Source: Syntrophorhabdaceae bacterium (GTDB taxonomy: Bacteria; Desulfobacterota; Syntrophorhabdia; Syntrophorhabdales; Syntrophorhabdaceae). From it: a stretch of DNA of 62,584 nt. The notes under the pieces were generated by a model. The model was not told where the DNA came from. It searched no databases and saw only the letters and a program-made list of their open reading frames with translations. Below are positions 18,167-27,695 of this stretch, one piece after another. The stretch spans positions 1 to 62,584 of the forward strand of contig JAOAGQ010000063.1 in the NCBI GenBank assembly GCA_026415675.1. Direction: 5' to 3'. Within the stretch, counting starts at the first letter, position 1; every line of letters starts with the position of its first letter. Both the position numbers and the translations under genes were made by a program.

Positions 18167-18985
18167 TTGGAAAAGGCAGGAAAAGAGTTTATAAAAAAAC
18201 CGCCGTTCACTTTTTTTCAAAAAATCGGACAGGGGACGATCCGTTTCATAAACACCCTTGGGGGGATCACGATCTTTTTTTTCCTCTCCTTCATAAACAT
18301 TTTCAGGCGCAAACAGATAAGGGAGATCATAAATCAGGTATACTATATCGGGGCCACCTCTTCCCTGATAGTGATGCTCGTTGCCCTTTTTACAGGTATG
18401 GTCTTAGGCCTCCAGCTCTTCTATACCCTCGTAAAATTTGGTTCTGTAGGTGCTCTGGGGTCTGCCATCTCCCTCTCCCTTATAAGGGAGTTGGGACCAG
18501 TGCTAACAGCCATAATGATTACAGCAAGGGCAGGTTCTGCCATGACCGCCGAGATAGGGATTTTACGTATCTCCGAACAGATAGATGCCCTCTATACGAT
18601 GAGGATAAACCCTGTGAGATACCTTATAAGCCCGAGGATTGCGGCATCTATAGTGAGCTTTCCCCTCCTCACCTCATTTTTCGACATAGTTGGTATGATA
18701 GGGGGATATATTACAGGGGTGATACTTCTCGGGACAAACGGGGGAACCTATCTATACCGTATTCAAGCCTCCATAAACATGGTGGATGTGAGAGGGGGTT
18801 TCATTAAATCCATCGTCTTTGCGATAATCGTCTCAACCATCTGTTGCTATCAGGGCTACTACTGCCACACAAGGTCAGATGGTTACGGTGCGAAGGCCGT
18901 TGGTCTTGCCACCATATCTGCCGTTGTCTTATCCTGTGTTATGATACTCATCGCAGACTATGTGGTTACATCGTTTCTCATGTAG
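18167..18985 (+). CDS. mlaE: MlaE-like phospholipid ABC transporter permease
   Basis: A 272-residue permease of the MlaE/YrbE family, the membrane part of the Mla system that moves phospholipids between outer and inner membrane. It begins at a TTG after AAGGA. Conserved elements are GMVLGLQ, RELGPVLTAIMITARAGSAMTAEIG (split: RELGPVLTAIM, ARAGSA, AEIG) and EQIDAL; about five membrane segments follow an amphipathic N-terminal helix. It is first of five co-directional mla genes. Confidence 0.94.
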   Translation: MEKAGKEFIKKPPFTFFQKIGQGTIRFINTLGGITIFFFLSFINIFRRKQIREIINQVYYIGATSSLIVMLVALFTGMVLGLQLFYTLVKFGSVGALGSAISLSLIRELGPVLTAIMITARAGSAMTAEIGILRISEQIDALYTMRINPVRYLISPRIAASIVSFPLLTSFFDIVGMIGGYITGVILLGTNGGTYLYRIQASINMVDVRGGFIKSIVFAIIVSTICCYQGYYCHTRSDGYGAKAVGLATISAVVLSCVMILIADYVVTSFLM

Positions 18986-18993
18986 GTAATCAA

Positions 18994-20235
18994 ATGGAGA
19001 CGCCTCTTATAGAATTTGTAAAGGTTACTAAGAGATTCGGGGATAAGACGGTTCTAAATAACATTGACCTTAAGATATATGGGAATCAGATCACCACCAT
19101 AATAGGCAAGAGTGGAACGGGAAAGAGTGTGCTCTTAAAGCATATAATTGGGCTTTTAGAGCCCGATGAGGGGGAGGTGCTTTTTCAGGGGAGGGCGATA
19201 AACAGGATGAACAGGAAGGAGAAGGATGCTTACAAGAGCAGGGTCTCCTATCTATTTCAGAATAATGCCCTCTTTGATTCCATGACGGTCTTTGAAAATG
19301 TGGCATTTCCCCTTATACAGACCACAGATTTGGGAAAAAGAGAGATAAAGGAAAGGGTCATGAAGAGGATGGAGGAACTCGAGTTGACCGATGCCCTCGA
19401 TAAATACCCCTCAGAACTCTCAGGGGGCATGCAGAAGAGGGTAGCCCTTGCGAGGGCCCTTATTACAGACCCTGAAATCGTTCTCTTCGATGAGCCTACA
19501 ACAGGTCAGGATCCCATAAGGAAGAACATGATTCTGAGCATGATCACCCATTACAAAAAGAAGTTCGGTTTTACCGCTGTTATGATAAGCCACGATATCC
19601 CCGATGTTTTTTTTATCTCCGACAGGATTATCATACTCTGGGATGGGAGAATAGGGTTTGAGGGTACATATGAAGAGGCAAAAAAGGTTAATATCCCGTT
19701 GATAGATGAGTTTTTAAGGAGTCTCGAAGGCTTCGAGGATGAACTCACAGGTTTGATATCGAGGGAGGTTTTCAGGGTGAGGTACTCCACAATCCTCGGA
19801 GGGCCTGTTGTGCCCCTGAAAGTCTCGGCGGTTCTCTTCAGCATAAGGATAAGCCTCCTTGAGGAGACGATTGGACCTCAAAAGACCATGGAAGTTTTAA
19901 GGATGCTCGGGGAGTACATAAATACAAGGTTTAGTCCCATAGGGGCATTCTCCGCGAGATATAGCCGTGATGAGATCTTGACGATCTTTCCCCATACGGA
20001 TGTGGAGGAGGCAGAACAACTCGTATATGAGTTTGCCCAGGAGTTGAAGGATAAGGTGTTGGCCAATATAAAGTTGGTATCCGAGAAAAAGGTTGGAGAG
20101 GAGCCCTGTTTTGATATACATATCCATGGAGGGGTTGTAGATGTTTCTTCCTCTGATACGATAGACCAGATTGTAGAGAAGGCGAGGGCAAGACAGAGGA
20201 TCATCGCAATACACAGATGTGAAAACGGGAGGTAG
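18994..20235 (+). CDS. mlaF: MlaF-like ATPase fused to degenerate GGDEF domain
   Basis: About 413 residues. Residues 1-245 form a normal MlaF ABC ATPase: Walker A GKSGTGKS, signature LSGGM, Walker B EIVLFDEPTTG, and the switch His in MISHDI. The ATG at 18994 fits the family start. MlaF usually ends near residue 250-270, but here about 160 residues follow that align with a diguanylate cyclase domain: DELTGLISREVF (249 on) at the DxLTGLxNRRxF position, then the helix-strand pattern, then ARYSRDEILTIFP at the RYGGDEFxxLLP position. The GG is replaced by Ser324-Arg325 and the metal-binding Asp of the first half is lost, so cyclase activity is not expected; GTP or c-di-GMP sensing remains possible. 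Confidence 0.88.
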   Translation: METPLIEFVKVTKRFGDKTVLNNIDLKIYGNQITTIIGKSGTGKSVLLKHIIGLLEPDEGEVLFQGRAINRMNRKEKDAYKSRVSYLFQNNALFDSMTVFENVAFPLIQTTDLGKREIKERVMKRMEELELTDALDKYPSELSGGMQKRVALARALITDPEIVLFDEPTTGQDPIRKNMILSMITHYKKKFGFTAVMISHDIPDVFFISDRIIILWDGRIGFEGTYEEAKKVNIPLIDEFLRSLEGFEDELTGLISREVFRVRYSTILGGPVVPLKVSAVLFSIRISLLEETIGPQKTMEVLRMLGEYINTRFSPIGAFSARYSRDEILTIFPHTDVEEAEQLVYEFAQELKDKVLANIKLVSEKKVGEEPCFDIHIHGGVVDVSSSDTIDQIVEKARARQRIIAIHRCENGR

Positions 20236-20240
20236 TTCCG

Positions 20241-20714
20241 ATGAAGAGGTTTTATATAGAGACGGTCGTAGGTATTTTTGTTGTGATAGGCCTTATCTGT
20301 GTAGGCTATATGACGGTAAAACTCGGAAAATTATCGATTTTTGAAGAGGATACATACACCGTCTACGGCAGGTTCGCCTCTGTCTCCGGGTTGAGAGTCG
20401 GCAGTTCTGTGGAGATATTCGGGATAGAGGTGGGAAGGGTGGTGAGTCTCTCCATCGACGAGGAGAGGCAGATGGGGATGGTAGGGATGAAGATAAAAAA
20501 GGGGATAAAGATATACGATGATGCAACTGCCGTTATCAAGACCGCAGGCCTTATAGGGGATAAATACGTGAAGATAGACCCCGGAGGGTCTGGAGAATTG
20601 TTAAAGGATAAGGGTATAATCACGCAGACCTCGGTTCCGGCGGATATAGAAGACCTTATAGGGAGATACGCCTTCGGAGATGTGAAAAAGGGGGGAGAAG
20701 GTGCATCAAAATAG
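20241..20714 (+). CDS. mlaD: MlaD-like MCE-domain protein
   Basis: A 157-residue periplasmic lipid-binding protein with one N-terminal anchor (residues 6-25, VVGIFVVIGLICVGYMTVKL) and one MCE domain (about 36-115), including ASVSGLRVGSSVEIFGIEVG and AGLIGDKYVKI. MlaD forms a hexameric ring on the MlaE permease. It begins 6 bases after mlaF. Its length is that of single-MCE MlaD proteins. Confidence 0.94.
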   Translation: MKRFYIETVVGIFVVIGLICVGYMTVKLGKLSIFEEDTYTVYGRFASVSGLRVGSSVEIFGIEVGRVVSLSIDEERQMGMVGMKIKKGIKIYDDATAVIKTAGLIGDKYVKIDPGGSGELLKDKGIITQTSVPADIEDLIGRYAFGDVKKGGEGASK

Positions 20715-20726
20715 AGGGAGGAGAGA

Positions 20727-21323
20727 TTGAAGGTAAAGGTTACAGTAATAGGGATGTTTTTAATAGCGGTCTTTTTCCCGTTTCATCTTTTCGGGGCTAC
20801 TGCCCTTGAGATGGTAAAGGCAAATGTAATCGATGTTTTAAGTGTTCTCAAAGACCCAAAACTGCAGGGTGAAGAGGGTAAAAAGACGAAGATGCAGAGG
20901 ATTGAAGTGGCTGCGGATAGGCTTTTTGATTATGTTGAGCTTTCAAGGAGGACCCTCGGTGTATCATGGAATAAATTCTCTCCCGAACAGCGAAAAGAGT
21001 TCGTAGCCTTATACAGGTTGCTTCTTAAGGATACCTACATTGAAAAGATCATGGCGTACAGAAACGAGGAGATAAATTTTCTCAAGGAGATACCCCTTTC
21101 AGAGTCAACGGTTGAGGTGCAGACAAGCGTTACCGCAAAGGGAGGTCCTGCTGCCATTTATTACAGGGCAATAAAGAAGGAGGAGGGATGGAAGGTTTAC
21201 GATGTGGTGATAGAAGGCGTCAGTTTGATAAACAATTACCGCACCCAGTTCAGGGAGATCCTCGGGAACAATCCCCCAGAGACACTTCTCGAAACCCTGC
21301 GGAAAAAGGTGGGAAAAAAGTAA
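20727..21323 (+). CDS. mlaC: MlaC-like periplasmic phospholipid carrier
   Basis: A 198-residue protein of the MlaC/Ttg2D family, which ferries phospholipid across the periplasm between MlaA and MlaD. It starts at a TTG behind GGAGGAG and has a signal peptide of about 23 residues ending near HLFGATA. Family features include the FDYVELSRRTLG helix, WNKFSPEQRKEFVALYRLLL and the C-terminal WKVYDVVIEGVSLINNYRTQF. It lies 12 bases after mlaD. Confidence 0.93.
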   Translation: MKVKVTVIGMFLIAVFFPFHLFGATALEMVKANVIDVLSVLKDPKLQGEEGKKTKMQRIEVAADRLFDYVELSRRTLGVSWNKFSPEQRKEFVALYRLLLKDTYIEKIMAYRNEEINFLKEIPLSESTVEVQTSVTAKGGPAAIYYRAIKKEEGWKVYDVVIEGVSLINNYRTQFREILGNNPPETLLETLRKKVGKK

Positions 21324-21328
21324 AATAT

Positions 21329-22132
21329 ATGCTTTTGTCTCTCATACCTGTTTTGATCCTCGCCATCCTGTTCGGGAACAATAGCTATCTATACGGAGAT
21401 ACCGTTCATGAGGCTTTAAAGGAGAACAGAACCGAACTCGAAGGGGAAGATAAGAATATATACGCCGAAGTTACAGAAGAGGAGACGGAAGGGGCTGACA
21501 GGGGTGCCACGATCCCCGACCCTTTTGAGGGATGGAACAGGGCGATCTTCCAGATAAATGACAGGTTTTATTTCTGGGTCTTAAAGCCTGTGGCAAGGGG
21601 GTATGGTTTTTTGTTAAACGAGGATATAAGGGGTCTTTTCAGTAACTTTTACAGTAACCTAAAAGGACCTTTAAGGATTGTGAATAACCTCCTCCAGGGG
21701 AGATTTTCTGCGGCAGGAATAGAATTTTCCCGCTTTTTAATAAATTCCACCGTCGGTGTGGCAGGGTTTAGGGACTGTGCGAAGGAGTGTTTCTCTATAA
21801 AGGAGAGATTTGCCGATTTTCGACAGACCCTCGGAAGATATGGTCTGGGATTTGGTTTCTATATTGTATGGCCCTTTATAGGACCCTCAAGCCCGAGGGA
21901 TACCCTGGGGATGATAGGGGATGGTCTGTTAATGCCGCAGGGTTATCTCCTCGAAAAGAGTTTTTTGACACCGGAGATGATCTCCCTCTTTGCCCATGAA
22001 TGGGTGAACAATTTATCCTTCCACATAGGGGACTATGAGACGTTGAAGAAAGCCGCCATTGATCCGTATATCGCTATGAGGGATGCCTATGTTCAATACA
22101 GAAAAGAGGTGATAGAAAGGGGTAGGGATTAG
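21329..22132 (+). CDS. mlaA: MlaA/VacJ-family outer-membrane lipid asymmetry protein
   Basis: About 267 residues of the MlaA (VacJ) family, which removes phospholipid from the outer leaflet of the outer membrane. Family stretches: DPFEGWNRAIFQINDRF near residue 60, then GLFSNFYSNLKGP, FLINSTVGVAGFRD, FRQTLGRYGLG and WPFIGPSSPRDTLG. The ATG at 21329 gives a hydrophobic signal sequence; a longer start would run through mlaC. Unlike E. coli MlaA there is no lipobox cysteine after the signal sequence, so it may be held by its own membrane helices. Its end overlaps the convergent gene by four bases. Confidence 0.92.
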   Translation: MLLSLIPVLILAILFGNNSYLYGDTVHEALKENRTELEGEDKNIYAEVTEEETEGADRGATIPDPFEGWNRAIFQINDRFYFWVLKPVARGYGFLLNEDIRGLFSNFYSNLKGPLRIVNNLLQGRFSAAGIEFSRFLINSTVGVAGFRDCAKECFSIKERFADFRQTLGRYGLGFGFYIVWPFIGPSSPRDTLGMIGDGLLMPQGYLLEKSFLTPEMISLFAHEWVNNLSFHIGDYETLKKAAIDPYIAMRDAYVQYRKEVIERGRD

Positions 22133-24257: not shown

Positions 24258-25583
24258 TCAGGAAACGGTTTCGGTATTCCTTACTATCAGGTTTCTACCT
24301 TTCTGTTTTGCCTCATAGAGGGCTTTATCCGCGGCCTCAATGATAGCTGATTCGGATTGTCCCTGTTTCGGTACCATCGTGGCAATGCCCATGCTCACCG
24401 TTACATAACTAGCTACCGATGACTGGGCATGGGGGATACTCAATGCCCTTATCCCATCCTTTAGCTTCTGGGCAAAGATATACGCCCCATCATTATCGGT
24501 ATCGGGCAATACACATGCAAACTCTTCCCCACCGTATCGGGCCAGAAGATCCGATGCCCTTTTTACCATATTGGATAAAACCTGGGCGATTTGCCTCAAG
24601 CACTCATCCCCGGCGACATGTCCGTAATAATCGTTGAAGTTCTTGAAAAAATCTATGTCTATCATGATGAGGGATAGGGGATGTTGAATACGGATCGCCC
24701 TTAACCATTCGTTATGGATGAAACTGTCGAACCTCCTTCTGTTTGAAACCCCCGTAAGGTAGTCTGTGAGGGATATGCTCTCGAGGAAGAACTGATACTT
24801 TTTTATCTCCGTTATGTCCCTGAAGGTCCATATCCTCCCGTAGTATGTCCCTTTATCGTCGAATATGGGGGAGGAGTACCTCTCTAAAAAAGTCCCATCT
24901 TTCTGTTCTATCACATCGCAGCTTATCTCTTCGGGATGTTCGTAGAGGTAGTTTATCCTCTCCACAAATTTTTCCGGATATCTCAATTTTTCTGTAAGGT
25001 ATTTTACCCTTATGTGGTCGTCCTTTTCGTTTACGATCTCCGGTGGCATCTTCCTCATATCTATATAACGTTGATTCTGGATGATCACCTGCCTATTTTC
25101 ATCGACGACGAGGATCGCATCGGGGGATGATTTTACAAGGGCTTCGAGAAAGGCGGTCTTTCTTTTCAGTTCATCTTCCGCAATTTTTCTCTTCGTCACA
25201 TCGGCTATGTACCCTTCAAGAACAACAGGGTCAGACCCGTTCTCAGAGACAACCTGGCCGTATTCCATCACCCATTTTAGAGAACCATTCTTTGCTATGA
25301 TCCTGTATGTTACCTCAAAGTGTTTCTTCTCCTTGACGCTTTTTTGTATTTCCTCCCATACCATCTCTCTGTCATCGGGGTGGATGATCTCATTGTAAGT
25401 GATGATACCGTTATTTACGAGTTCTTCGGGGGTGTAACCTGTTACTTTTATGGACCCCATACTGACAAATTCCATGGTCCAGTTTTTGTCGTTTAAGCAT
25501 CGATAGACCATGCCTGGCAGGTTGGAGAGCAAGGTCATGAGAAAACGTCTGCTTTCAAAAACCGTTTTTTCTTTTTCTTTCAT
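24258..25583 (-). CDS. PAS-PAS-GGDEF diguanylate cyclase
   Basis: A 441-residue cytoplasmic sensor that should make c-di-GMP. Two PAS domains (about 12-130 with a PAC-like TYRIIAKNGSLKWVMEYG, and 140-265 with AILVVDENRQVIIQNQRYID) precede a GGDEF domain (about 270-435). The active site is intact: DIDFFKNFNDYYGH, then GGEEF at residues 351-355, and the inhibitory site RASD five residues before it, so product feedback is likely. No membrane segments are seen. It diverges from an HD-GYP phosphodiesterase gene with which it shares a promoter region. Confidence 0.92.
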   Translation of the reverse strand: MKEKEKTVFESRRFLMTLLSNLPGMVYRCLNDKNWTMEFVSMGSIKVTGYTPEELVNNGIITYNEIIHPDDREMVWEEIQKSVKEKKHFEVTYRIIAKNGSLKWVMEYGQVVSENGSDPVVLEGYIADVTKRKIAEDELKRKTAFLEALVKSSPDAILVVDENRQVIIQNQRYIDMRKMPPEIVNEKDDHIRVKYLTEKLRYPEKFVERINYLYEHPEEISCDVIEQKDGTFLERYSSPIFDDKGTYYGRIWTFRDITEIKKYQFFLESISLTDYLTGVSNRRRFDSFIHNEWLRAIRIQHPLSLIMIDIDFFKNFNDYYGHVAGDECLRQIAQVLSNMVKRASDLLARYGGEEFACVLPDTDNDGAYIFAQKLKDGIRALSIPHAQSSVASYVTVSMGIATMVPKQGQSESAIIEAADKALYEAKQKGRNLIVRNTETVS

Positions 25584-25784: not shown

Positions 25785-27695
25785 ATGGAAGAAACGATTC
25801 CTTATGGTGTATCGGTAAGGGTGCTTTTCGTTGGGGATTCTGAGGAAGATACACATCTCATCGCAGGAGAGTTAAAGAAGTACGGTTTCAACCCGTATTT
25901 TGAAAGGGTTGAGACGGAGAAGGGTTTTGTCTCCGCGATAGATAGAGACACCTGGGATATAATCCTTATTGACTATAACCTCCCGAAATTACTTTTTAAC
26001 AGCATACTCAAGTTATACGAAAAATTTAATGTAAATACACCCCTTATCCTTCTCACCGGAGGTATTGCGGTAGAAGATGTGATGGAGGCTATTGAACAGG
26101 GGGTGAAGGATTATATATACAAGGATGATCTAACGAGGCTTGGCCCTGTAATTACGAGGGAGTTAAGGAGTGTAAAGATAAAGAAAGAGAAAAAGGAATG
26201 GCAGAAAAGACTCACGGTAGAGTTGGAATGGAAGGATTTTTTCAATAAACTTTACAGAGATTATAAATCTTACCCTTGGGGTAAGTTTTTATCTTGGGCC
26301 CTTCAAGAGATGATTAGACTGACAGAGAGTGGTTTTGGGTTCTCAATGGTAATCTCTTTAGAGAAGAAGGAGGTAAAATTCCATGTATATGAGTCCGGGG
26401 AAGGCTGTGGATTCTCCTCTGCCCAAAAGTGCATAAACGATGGGGCAGGTCTATGGTTCGACCCGGTGAGGTTAAAAAGGCCCGTGGTAATAAATGAATT
26501 CGAAAAGTTCGAGGGAAGAAGGGAATTACCGGAAGGCCATGTCAGGATAAAAAGGTTTCTGGGGGTGGCGGCAGAAAAGACAGGGGATGATCTATGTATC
26601 GTGGGTGTGGCGAACAAAAAAGAGGATTATAATGAACAGGATGTTAAAATGCTCCAGATAGGGGCCGATACCGTGCAGAAAATAGTGGATTTAAAAAATG
26701 CGGAGGAGGCCTTAAGGGTAAGCGAGGAGAGATACCGTTCCATAATTGAAAATGCCTCGGAGGGCATATACCAGAGTAGCCCAAAGGGCCATTTTATCAT
26801 GGTGAACCCTGCCCTTGCGAGGATATACGGTTATGAATCCCCGGAGGAGCTAATAGCCTCCATAAGAGATATAGGGCATGATCTATACGTAGATAGAGAG
26901 GAGCGAGAGCGGTTTAAAGAGGCGATTAGAAAGTACGGCTACGTGAAGGACTTTGAGCATAAATCATACAAAAAGAACGGGGAGGTGATCTGGGTCTCTC
27001 TAAACAGCCGTGCGGTAAAGGATGAGAAGGGTAACGTTATCTGCTATGAGGGTATCGTTGAAGATATAACGGCAAGAAAGATGGCGGAAGAGTCTATAAG
27101 GGAATATACGGAGAAGCTGAGAAAAAATCTGATAGGTACGATCCAGACCATATCGATGATAGTTGAGGTAAGGGACCCTTATACATCGGGACATCAGAAG
27201 AGGGTCTCCAAGCTCGCAAGGGTTATGGCCCAGGAGATAGGCCTATCCCATGATGCAACGGAGAACATAAGGATGGCAGCATTGATCCACGATATAGGAA
27301 AGATATCCATCCCTGCAGAGATATTGAGCAAACCCACAAGGTTATCAGAAATAGAGATGAGTCTTATAAAGATACACCCCCAGTCGGGGTATGATATAGT
27401 AAAAAATGTGGATCTCCCATATCCAATTGCGGAGACCATCCTCCAGCACCATGAAAGGCTTGATGGTTCGGGGTATCCAAAAGGGATTAAAAACGGAGAG
27501 ATACTCCTTGAATCGCAGATCATAGCCATTGCAGATGTGGTGGAGGCGATCTCCTCCCACAGGCCTTATAGACCTGCCCTCGGAATAGACGCTGCCCTTG
27601 AAGAGATCGAAAGGCAGAAAGGTATCCTCTTCATTCCGGATCTTGTGGATGTGTGTATCAGGCTATTCAGAGAAAAGGGGTTTGTCTTCGATTAG
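25785..27695 (+). CDS. REC-GAF-PAS-HD-GYP c-di-GMP phosphodiesterase
   Basis: A 636-residue signalling protein. Residues 10-125 form a response-regulator receiver with acidic GDSEED and phospho-acceptor Asp63 in LIDYNLP. Residues 150-305 resemble a GAF domain. A PAS domain with PAC tail follows (about 310-435, ENASEGIYQSSPKGHFIMVNP). The HD-GYP domain (about 445-630) is complete: VRDPYTSGHQKRVS, His502-Asp503 in HDIGK, LQHHERLDGSGYPKG with the GYP at 563-565, and ADVVEAISSHRPYRP. It should hydrolyse c-di-GMP under control of a histidine kinase not in this window. Confidence 0.93.
   Translation: MEETIPYGVSVRVLFVGDSEEDTHLIAGELKKYGFNPYFERVETEKGFVSAIDRDTWDIILIDYNLPKLLFNSILKLYEKFNVNTPLILLTGGIAVEDVMEAIEQGVKDYIYKDDLTRLGPVITRELRSVKIKKEKKEWQKRLTVELEWKDFFNKLYRDYKSYPWGKFLSWALQEMIRLTESGFGFSMVISLEKKEVKFHVYESGEGCGFSSAQKCINDGAGLWFDPVRLKRPVVINEFEKFEGRRELPEGHVRIKRFLGVAAEKTGDDLCIVGVANKKEDYNEQDVKMLQIGADTVQKIVDLKNAEEALRVSEERYRSIIENASEGIYQSSPKGHFIMVNPALARIYGYESPEELIASIRDIGHDLYVDREERERFKEAIRKYGYVKDFEHKSYKKNGEVIWVSLNSRAVKDEKGNVICYEGIVEDITARKMAEESIREYTEKLRKNLIGTIQTISMIVEVRDPYTSGHQKRVSKLARVMAQEIGLSHDATENIRMAALIHDIGKISIPAEILSKPTRLSEIEMSLIKIHPQSGYDIVKNVDLPYPIAETILQHHERLDGSGYPKGIKNGEILLESQIIAIADVVEAISSHRPYRPALGIDAALEEIERQKGILFIPDLVDVCIRLFREKGFVFD

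Follow-up and report, generated by a model that had tools for sequence, protein, structure and literature searches.

The Mla operon of a Syntrophorhabdaceae bacterium encodes an ATPase in which a complete MlaF-type ABC domain is joined to a degenerate diguanylate cyclase (GGDEF) domain, a fusion that is conserved within a large phylum and appears to have a single old origin. The best explanation of the data as a whole, which we hold with moderate confidence, is that a dead GGDEF domain sits where Escherichia coli MlaF carries its C-terminal "handshake" extension and plays a dimer-stabilizing or docking role. Each half belongs to a known family; their union in a conserved class of transporters appears to be new, as we found no publication on it in the open literature searched, although this does not prove that none exists.

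An Mla operon with an extended ATPase

The window, that is, the whole stretch of DNA analyzed (62,584 nucleotides, contig JAOAGQ010000063.1), contains the following genes and domain:

18167..18985, + strand: mlaE permease, TTG start as listed, without a STAS domain (Pfam)
18994..20235, + strand: fused mlaF, MlaF-type ABC ATPase plus degenerate GGDEF domain, 413 aa (ORF translation, Pfam)
19006..19722, + strand: ABC ATPase half of the fused mlaF, residues 5-243 (Pfam, PDB sequence comparison, motifs read from the sequence)
20241..20714, + strand: mlaD, MCE domain (Pfam)
20727..21323, + strand: mlaC (Pfam)
21329..22132, + strand: mlaA, likely ATG at 21329 (Pfam); the mechanically delimited ORF starts at 21188, inside mlaC

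The gene order is mlaE-mlaF-mlaD-mlaC-mlaA; mlaE ends 8 bases upstream of the fused mlaF, the translated frame of which (18994-20235, + strand) contains no internal stops. The adjacent genes carry PF02405, PF02470, PF05494, and PF04333 (Pfam), and the companions that mark an MlaF operon (mlaE, mlaD, and mlaC) are all present. The ABC half contains the Walker A (GKSGTGKS), signature (LSGGMQ), Walker B (IVLFDEP), and H-loop (ISHD) motifs, and Pfam places ABC_tran at residues 21-170 (E 2.8e-37). Its best NCBIfam model is PRK11831 (MlaF; residues 4-242), with 204.9 bits, a score below the equivalog cut-off of 441. The best PDB sequence matches of the protein are MlaF chains, and the alignment of the ABC half runs to residue 245 in E. 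coli MlaF and covers residues 13-251 of Acinetobacter baumannii MlaF. An earlier note, made from the sequence alone, described a complete ABC ATPase, and residues 5-243 are indeed of the MlaF type with every motif in place. Judged from its sequence, the product is the ATPase of an Mla system predicted to transport phospholipids.

The N-terminus of MlaA (MLLSLIPVLILAILFGNNSYLYGDT...; window 21329-22132) lacks the lipobox cysteine, so this protein may not be a lipoprotein. Downstream of the operon, at a distance of 2-5 kb, are two signaling genes: one (24258-25583, - strand; 2-3 kb away) encodes a PAS-type protein whose GGEEF cyclase domain is intact and the other (25785-27695, + strand) a response-regulator/PAS/HD-GYP-type protein. 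Promoter and terminator patterns in the window hardly stood out from the shuffled background and could not be used.

The C-terminal region belongs to the GGDEF family

19738..20184, + strand: degenerate GGDEF domain of the fused mlaF, residues 249-397 by Pfam (Pfam, hhalign, predicted fold)

Taken singly, the protein gives a marginal Pfam signal, as would be expected if the tail had some other fold and resembled GGDEF by chance: the full-length product scores 23.1 bits against PF00990, just under the gathering cut-off of 23.8 bits, and the tail alone reaches 25.8 bits (E 1e-5). This weak match is more than a chance one, however, because all 32 diverse fusion tails match Pfam GGDEF (best E 1.2e-17). 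In a profile-profile comparison with hhalign, the alignment of these 32 tails matched the seven canonical GGDEF domains that the window genome encodes with a probability of 99.3 (E 9e-21), and the tail profile searched against PDB sequences retrieved diguanylate cyclases (best E 1.4e-14). AlphaFold2 modeling of the tail (pLDDT 79.9, pTM 0.80) yielded a GGDEF fold that extends to about residue 407, past the Pfam end at 397. With this model as the query, the best 50 Foldseek matches included only GGDEF-containing structures (PleD, E 4.6e-7), and the best 50 VIA matches likewise all contained GGDEF (top match 3ign, Z 15.9, rmsd 2.8, 151 residues). Profile, profile-profile, and structure comparisons together rule out a different fold with fortuitous similarity, to which we assign virtually no chance. 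The degenerate GGDEF domain proposed from the sequence is fully supported at the levels of profile, profile-profile, and predicted fold, and no better-matching family emerged.

A pseudo-cyclase with eroded ligand sites

19840..19842, + strand: codon of Ser283, which replaces the first metal-binding Asp of diguanylate cyclases (alignment to canonical GGDEF domains)
19963..19977, + strand: residues 324-328, SRDEI in place of the GG(D/E)EF motif (alignment to canonical GGDEF domains)

The replacement of the GG of the motif by Ser-Arg and the loss of the metal Asp, both noticed earlier, are thus located at residues 324-328 and 283, respectively. The guanine-contact Asp/Asn and the RxxD I-site are missing from the same tail. 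To place these losses among relatives, 76 fusion tails were mapped automatically to canonical GGDEF domains, a mapping that is poor past the motif, in the last third of the domain. In all 76 tails, the GG(D/E)EF pentad is missing, as are the first metal-binding Asp and the "GD"-motif Asp that contacts guanine; the Arg and Asp of the I-site occur in 5 and 9 rows, respectively. Scaffold positions are kept, namely, the T of LTG in 74 of the 76 tails, the G of GH in 73, and the R before the motif in 74. The pentads of relatives include SQNEI, KTNEF, GPEEI, and GMNKI, a variety which implies that catalysis does not constrain the motif region. An intact MlaF-GGDEF ancestor was sought among divergent fusions and none was found; the closest pentad, GADEF (L104), comes from a tail in which the metal Asp is absent. 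From these residues, the tail is predicted to be dead as a cyclase, with the loss already early, and to make no c-di-GMP.

A dead cyclase domain can still bind nucleotides, and the pseudo-GGDEF could be a sensor of c-di-GMP, GTP, or ppGpp that ties lipid transport to the levels of second messengers. CdgI, a degenerate GGDEF protein, binds c-di-GMP through its I-site (PMC5635695), and the genome studied here encodes active-looking GGDEF proteins, among them the one at 24258-25583. The fused protein, however, has lost the metal, guanine-contact, and I-site residues alike, and both Asp positions are gone in 76 of 76 fusions; moreover, an EAL domain is absent, and an Rfam scan of the window revealed no riboswitch and no other RNA. 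We therefore regard a sensor as quite improbable, and the control by nucleotides or c-di-GMP that the earlier note envisaged is disfavored by the loss of these sites in all or nearly all relatives.

Distribution and origin of the fusion

Within the phylum (Desulfobacterota/Thermodesulfobacteriota-type bacteria), full-length ABC-GGDEF frames were detected in 20 groups at the family level, namely, f1, f2, f10, f12, f31, f32, f34, f35, f38, f58, f64, f68, f71, f72, f80, f91, f95, f106, f107, and f111. The family of the window genome has the fusion in 24 of 37 genomes, a count that includes two fusions split by contig ends. Named relatives include Syntrophorhabdus and metagenome-assembled genomes (MAGs) labeled Syntrophaceae, Syntrophus, Syntrophobacterales, and Deltaproteobacteria. 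Among 395 genomes drawn from the phylum, 40 matched a narrow profile at E <= 1e-12 and 63 a broad profile at E <= 1e-19, a minority of the latter being ordinary GGDEF proteins. Single MAGs labeled Nitrospirae (L063) and Myxococcota (L051 and L056) also encode the fusion, but these labels are possibly wrong. The viral contigs searched contained no relative. A frame or assembly artifact is ruled out by the recurrence of the fusion, with the same joint, in dozens of genomes.

A maximum-likelihood tree was built for the ABC half from 51 fusions and 17 unfused MlaF proteins of the same genomes. All fusions fall on one side of one branch (support 100/99), which points to one ancient origin. The order mlaE-fused mlaF-mlaD-mlaC is kept in five distant operons (L131, L092, L088, L129, and L108), with MlaE and MlaD of L088 placed partly by gene order. 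Of the four inspected further, the first three have mlaA next to mlaC, and L129 has a trypsin-like gene in this place. The L088 operon (genome G174) additionally contains, after mlaA, a second and more divergent MlaF-GGDEF paralog (474-1829, - strand) with a stronger GGDEF match (53 bits) yet a dead motif (GMNKI), followed by a gene for an HATPase_c_2 protein of the anti-sigma kinase type (34-447, - strand).

Purifying selection on the tail

Comparison of six closely related pairs gave dN/dS values of 0.09-0.17 for the tail and 0.03-0.07 for the ABC half; the tail of fused MlaF is held under purifying selection. The mean majority-residue fraction is nevertheless lower in the tail than in the ABC half (0.43 vs 0.73), as would fit a passive leftover of an old gene fusion, tolerated and decaying. 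Such a leftover is highly improbable given these dN/dS values, the near full length that the tail retains across the 20 family-level groups, and the lack of internal stops in verified fusions.

Two cysteines, Cys372 (window 20107-20109) and Cys409 (window 20218-20220), adjoin the last two strands of the tail; most fusions have them, and they tend to occur together. Across the fusions, both positions are cysteine in 31 proteins, only the second in 8, only the first in 1, and neither in 5; cysteine is rare in ordinary GGDEF domains of the window genome. A metal-binding, redox, or structural pair is possible.

Fused systems and MlaB

Fused systems occur without a neighboring MlaB. In the window genome, a STAS_2 search gave two matches, both away from the operon, which has no MlaB/STAS neighbor, in line with what had been read from the sequence; one of the two is fused in frame to a different MlaE. 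The other MlaE systems of this genome (G000:C35, L116, and G000:C61, L115) comprise one in-frame STAS-MlaE and one without STAS or GGDEF. Across 103 MlaE loci from 40 fusion-bearing genomes, a STAS domain lies within 3 kb of 0 of 36 fused and 31 of 67 unfused MlaE operons (Fisher p 7e-8, shared ancestry ignored), mostly in frame with MlaE in the latter. At two MlaE loci (G002 and G014), the fused MlaF is split over contig ends, and both were scored as unfused; some weak STAS domains may also have been missed. Neither effect places a STAS domain beside a fused operon.

This distribution is what would be seen if the tail specifically replaced MlaB, acting at the MlaB site on the MlaF helical subdomain to activate or stabilize the ATPase. 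The p value, however, ignores shared ancestry, and the tree shows few independent events. In the ABC-half tree, STAS-type MlaF proteins branch off as a deep clade of their own, and STAS is also missing from the unfused clades that stand next to the fusion, a pattern that weakens the case for a substitute; the fusion seems to have been born in a lineage that had no MlaB to replace. Furthermore, MlaB is sparsely distributed among diderms in general (PMC10665443). Replacement of MlaB is hence possible but on the unlikely side. The structural regulator in place of MlaB suggested in the earlier note is upheld in its first part, a structural regulator being the preferred reading; replacement is compatible with the gene content.

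A putative dimerization or docking module

The MlaF homology of the fused protein ends at residues 242-243, equivalent to E. coli residue 245, and the pseudo-GGDEF starts a few residues on. In this alignment, the tail appears to take the position of the E. coli handshake extension rather than that of MlaB. In E. coli, residues 247-269 of MlaF wrap the other MlaF; deletion of the extension abolishes function, with MlaF and MlaB gone from the complex, and a fused GCN4 dimerization domain substantially restores growth (PMC7367683). GGDEF domains, including degenerate ones, form homo- and heteromeric contacts (PMC5635695). The retained pseudo-cyclase tail is most likely a dimerization or docking module of the ATPase, a built-in part that probably persists because it clamps the motor or gives partners a place to dock.

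Under this scheme, the fusion would have arisen once, in an MlaF lineage without a neighboring MlaB, at the place of the approximately 25-residue extension of E. coli. Within the MlaF2E2 complex, the tail might pair with that of the second MlaF or with a different GGDEF protein; paired tails would stabilize the ATPase dimer and its grip on MlaE, and could offer partners a surface for tuning transport. Binding of GTP or c-di-GMP is probably not needed, although a ligand of another kind is conceivable. The model of the full-length protein (pTM 0.55) is too uncertain to place the tail. A large domain is not obviously needed for dimerization: Veillonella MlaF, which has no MlaB, was modeled with a shorter extension that still touches its neighbor (PMC10665443), and the unfused sister MlaF proteins have short tails only. 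A broader proposal, speculative and on balance unlikely, is a phylum-wide Mla class in which the dead cyclase domain mediates dimerization and partner docking, and outer-membrane lipid transport is tuned by heterodimers with cellular GGDEF proteins or by redox state through the two cysteines.

The fusion bears on the regulation of Mla-type ABC transporters and on the question of who does the job of MlaB in the many diderms that lack it. Conserved in a large phylum and apparently of single origin, it is a candidate built-in regulator that can be deleted or swapped, and it would clearly exemplify how an enzyme domain of second-messenger signaling can be recruited into a membrane transporter as a non-enzymatic component.

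Comparison with known systems

Like MlaF of E. coli and A. baumannii (MlaFEDB; 6xbd and 7d06), the fused protein combines complete ABC motifs with an operon containing mlaE, mlaD, and mlaC, and its signature has the Met after SGG (SGGM) found in Mla systems. Whereas E. coli MlaF ends in the handshake extension of about 25 aa and binds the STAS protein MlaB, the fused MlaF ends in a pseudo-GGDEF of about 170 aa and has no MlaB nearby.

The tail resembles the degenerate GGDEF domains of CsrD, LapD, and CdgI in keeping the GGDEF fold without the cyclase motif, and its best NCBIfam model is CsrD (E 2e-4), followed by weak matches to DgcR and LapD. In those proteins, however, the GGDEF domain is standalone or linked to EAL and sensor domains, whereas the fused MlaF joins it to an ABC ATPase; CdgI also retains the I-site that the fused MlaF lacks. 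The tail profile also matched the ammonium-transporter entries 8qj3, 8qj4, and 8qpf, in which GGDEF is likewise joined to a transporter. There, GGDEF sits on a channel-type membrane protein; in the fused MlaF, a degenerate GGDEF sits on the ATPase, a cytoplasmic part of an ABC transporter for lipids. The in-frame STAS-MlaE fusions of the same genomes (for example, G000 C35) similarly add a cytoplasmic domain to an Mla-type subunit, but in these the STAS domain is N-terminal to MlaE and the accompanying MlaF is unfused and belongs to another clade.
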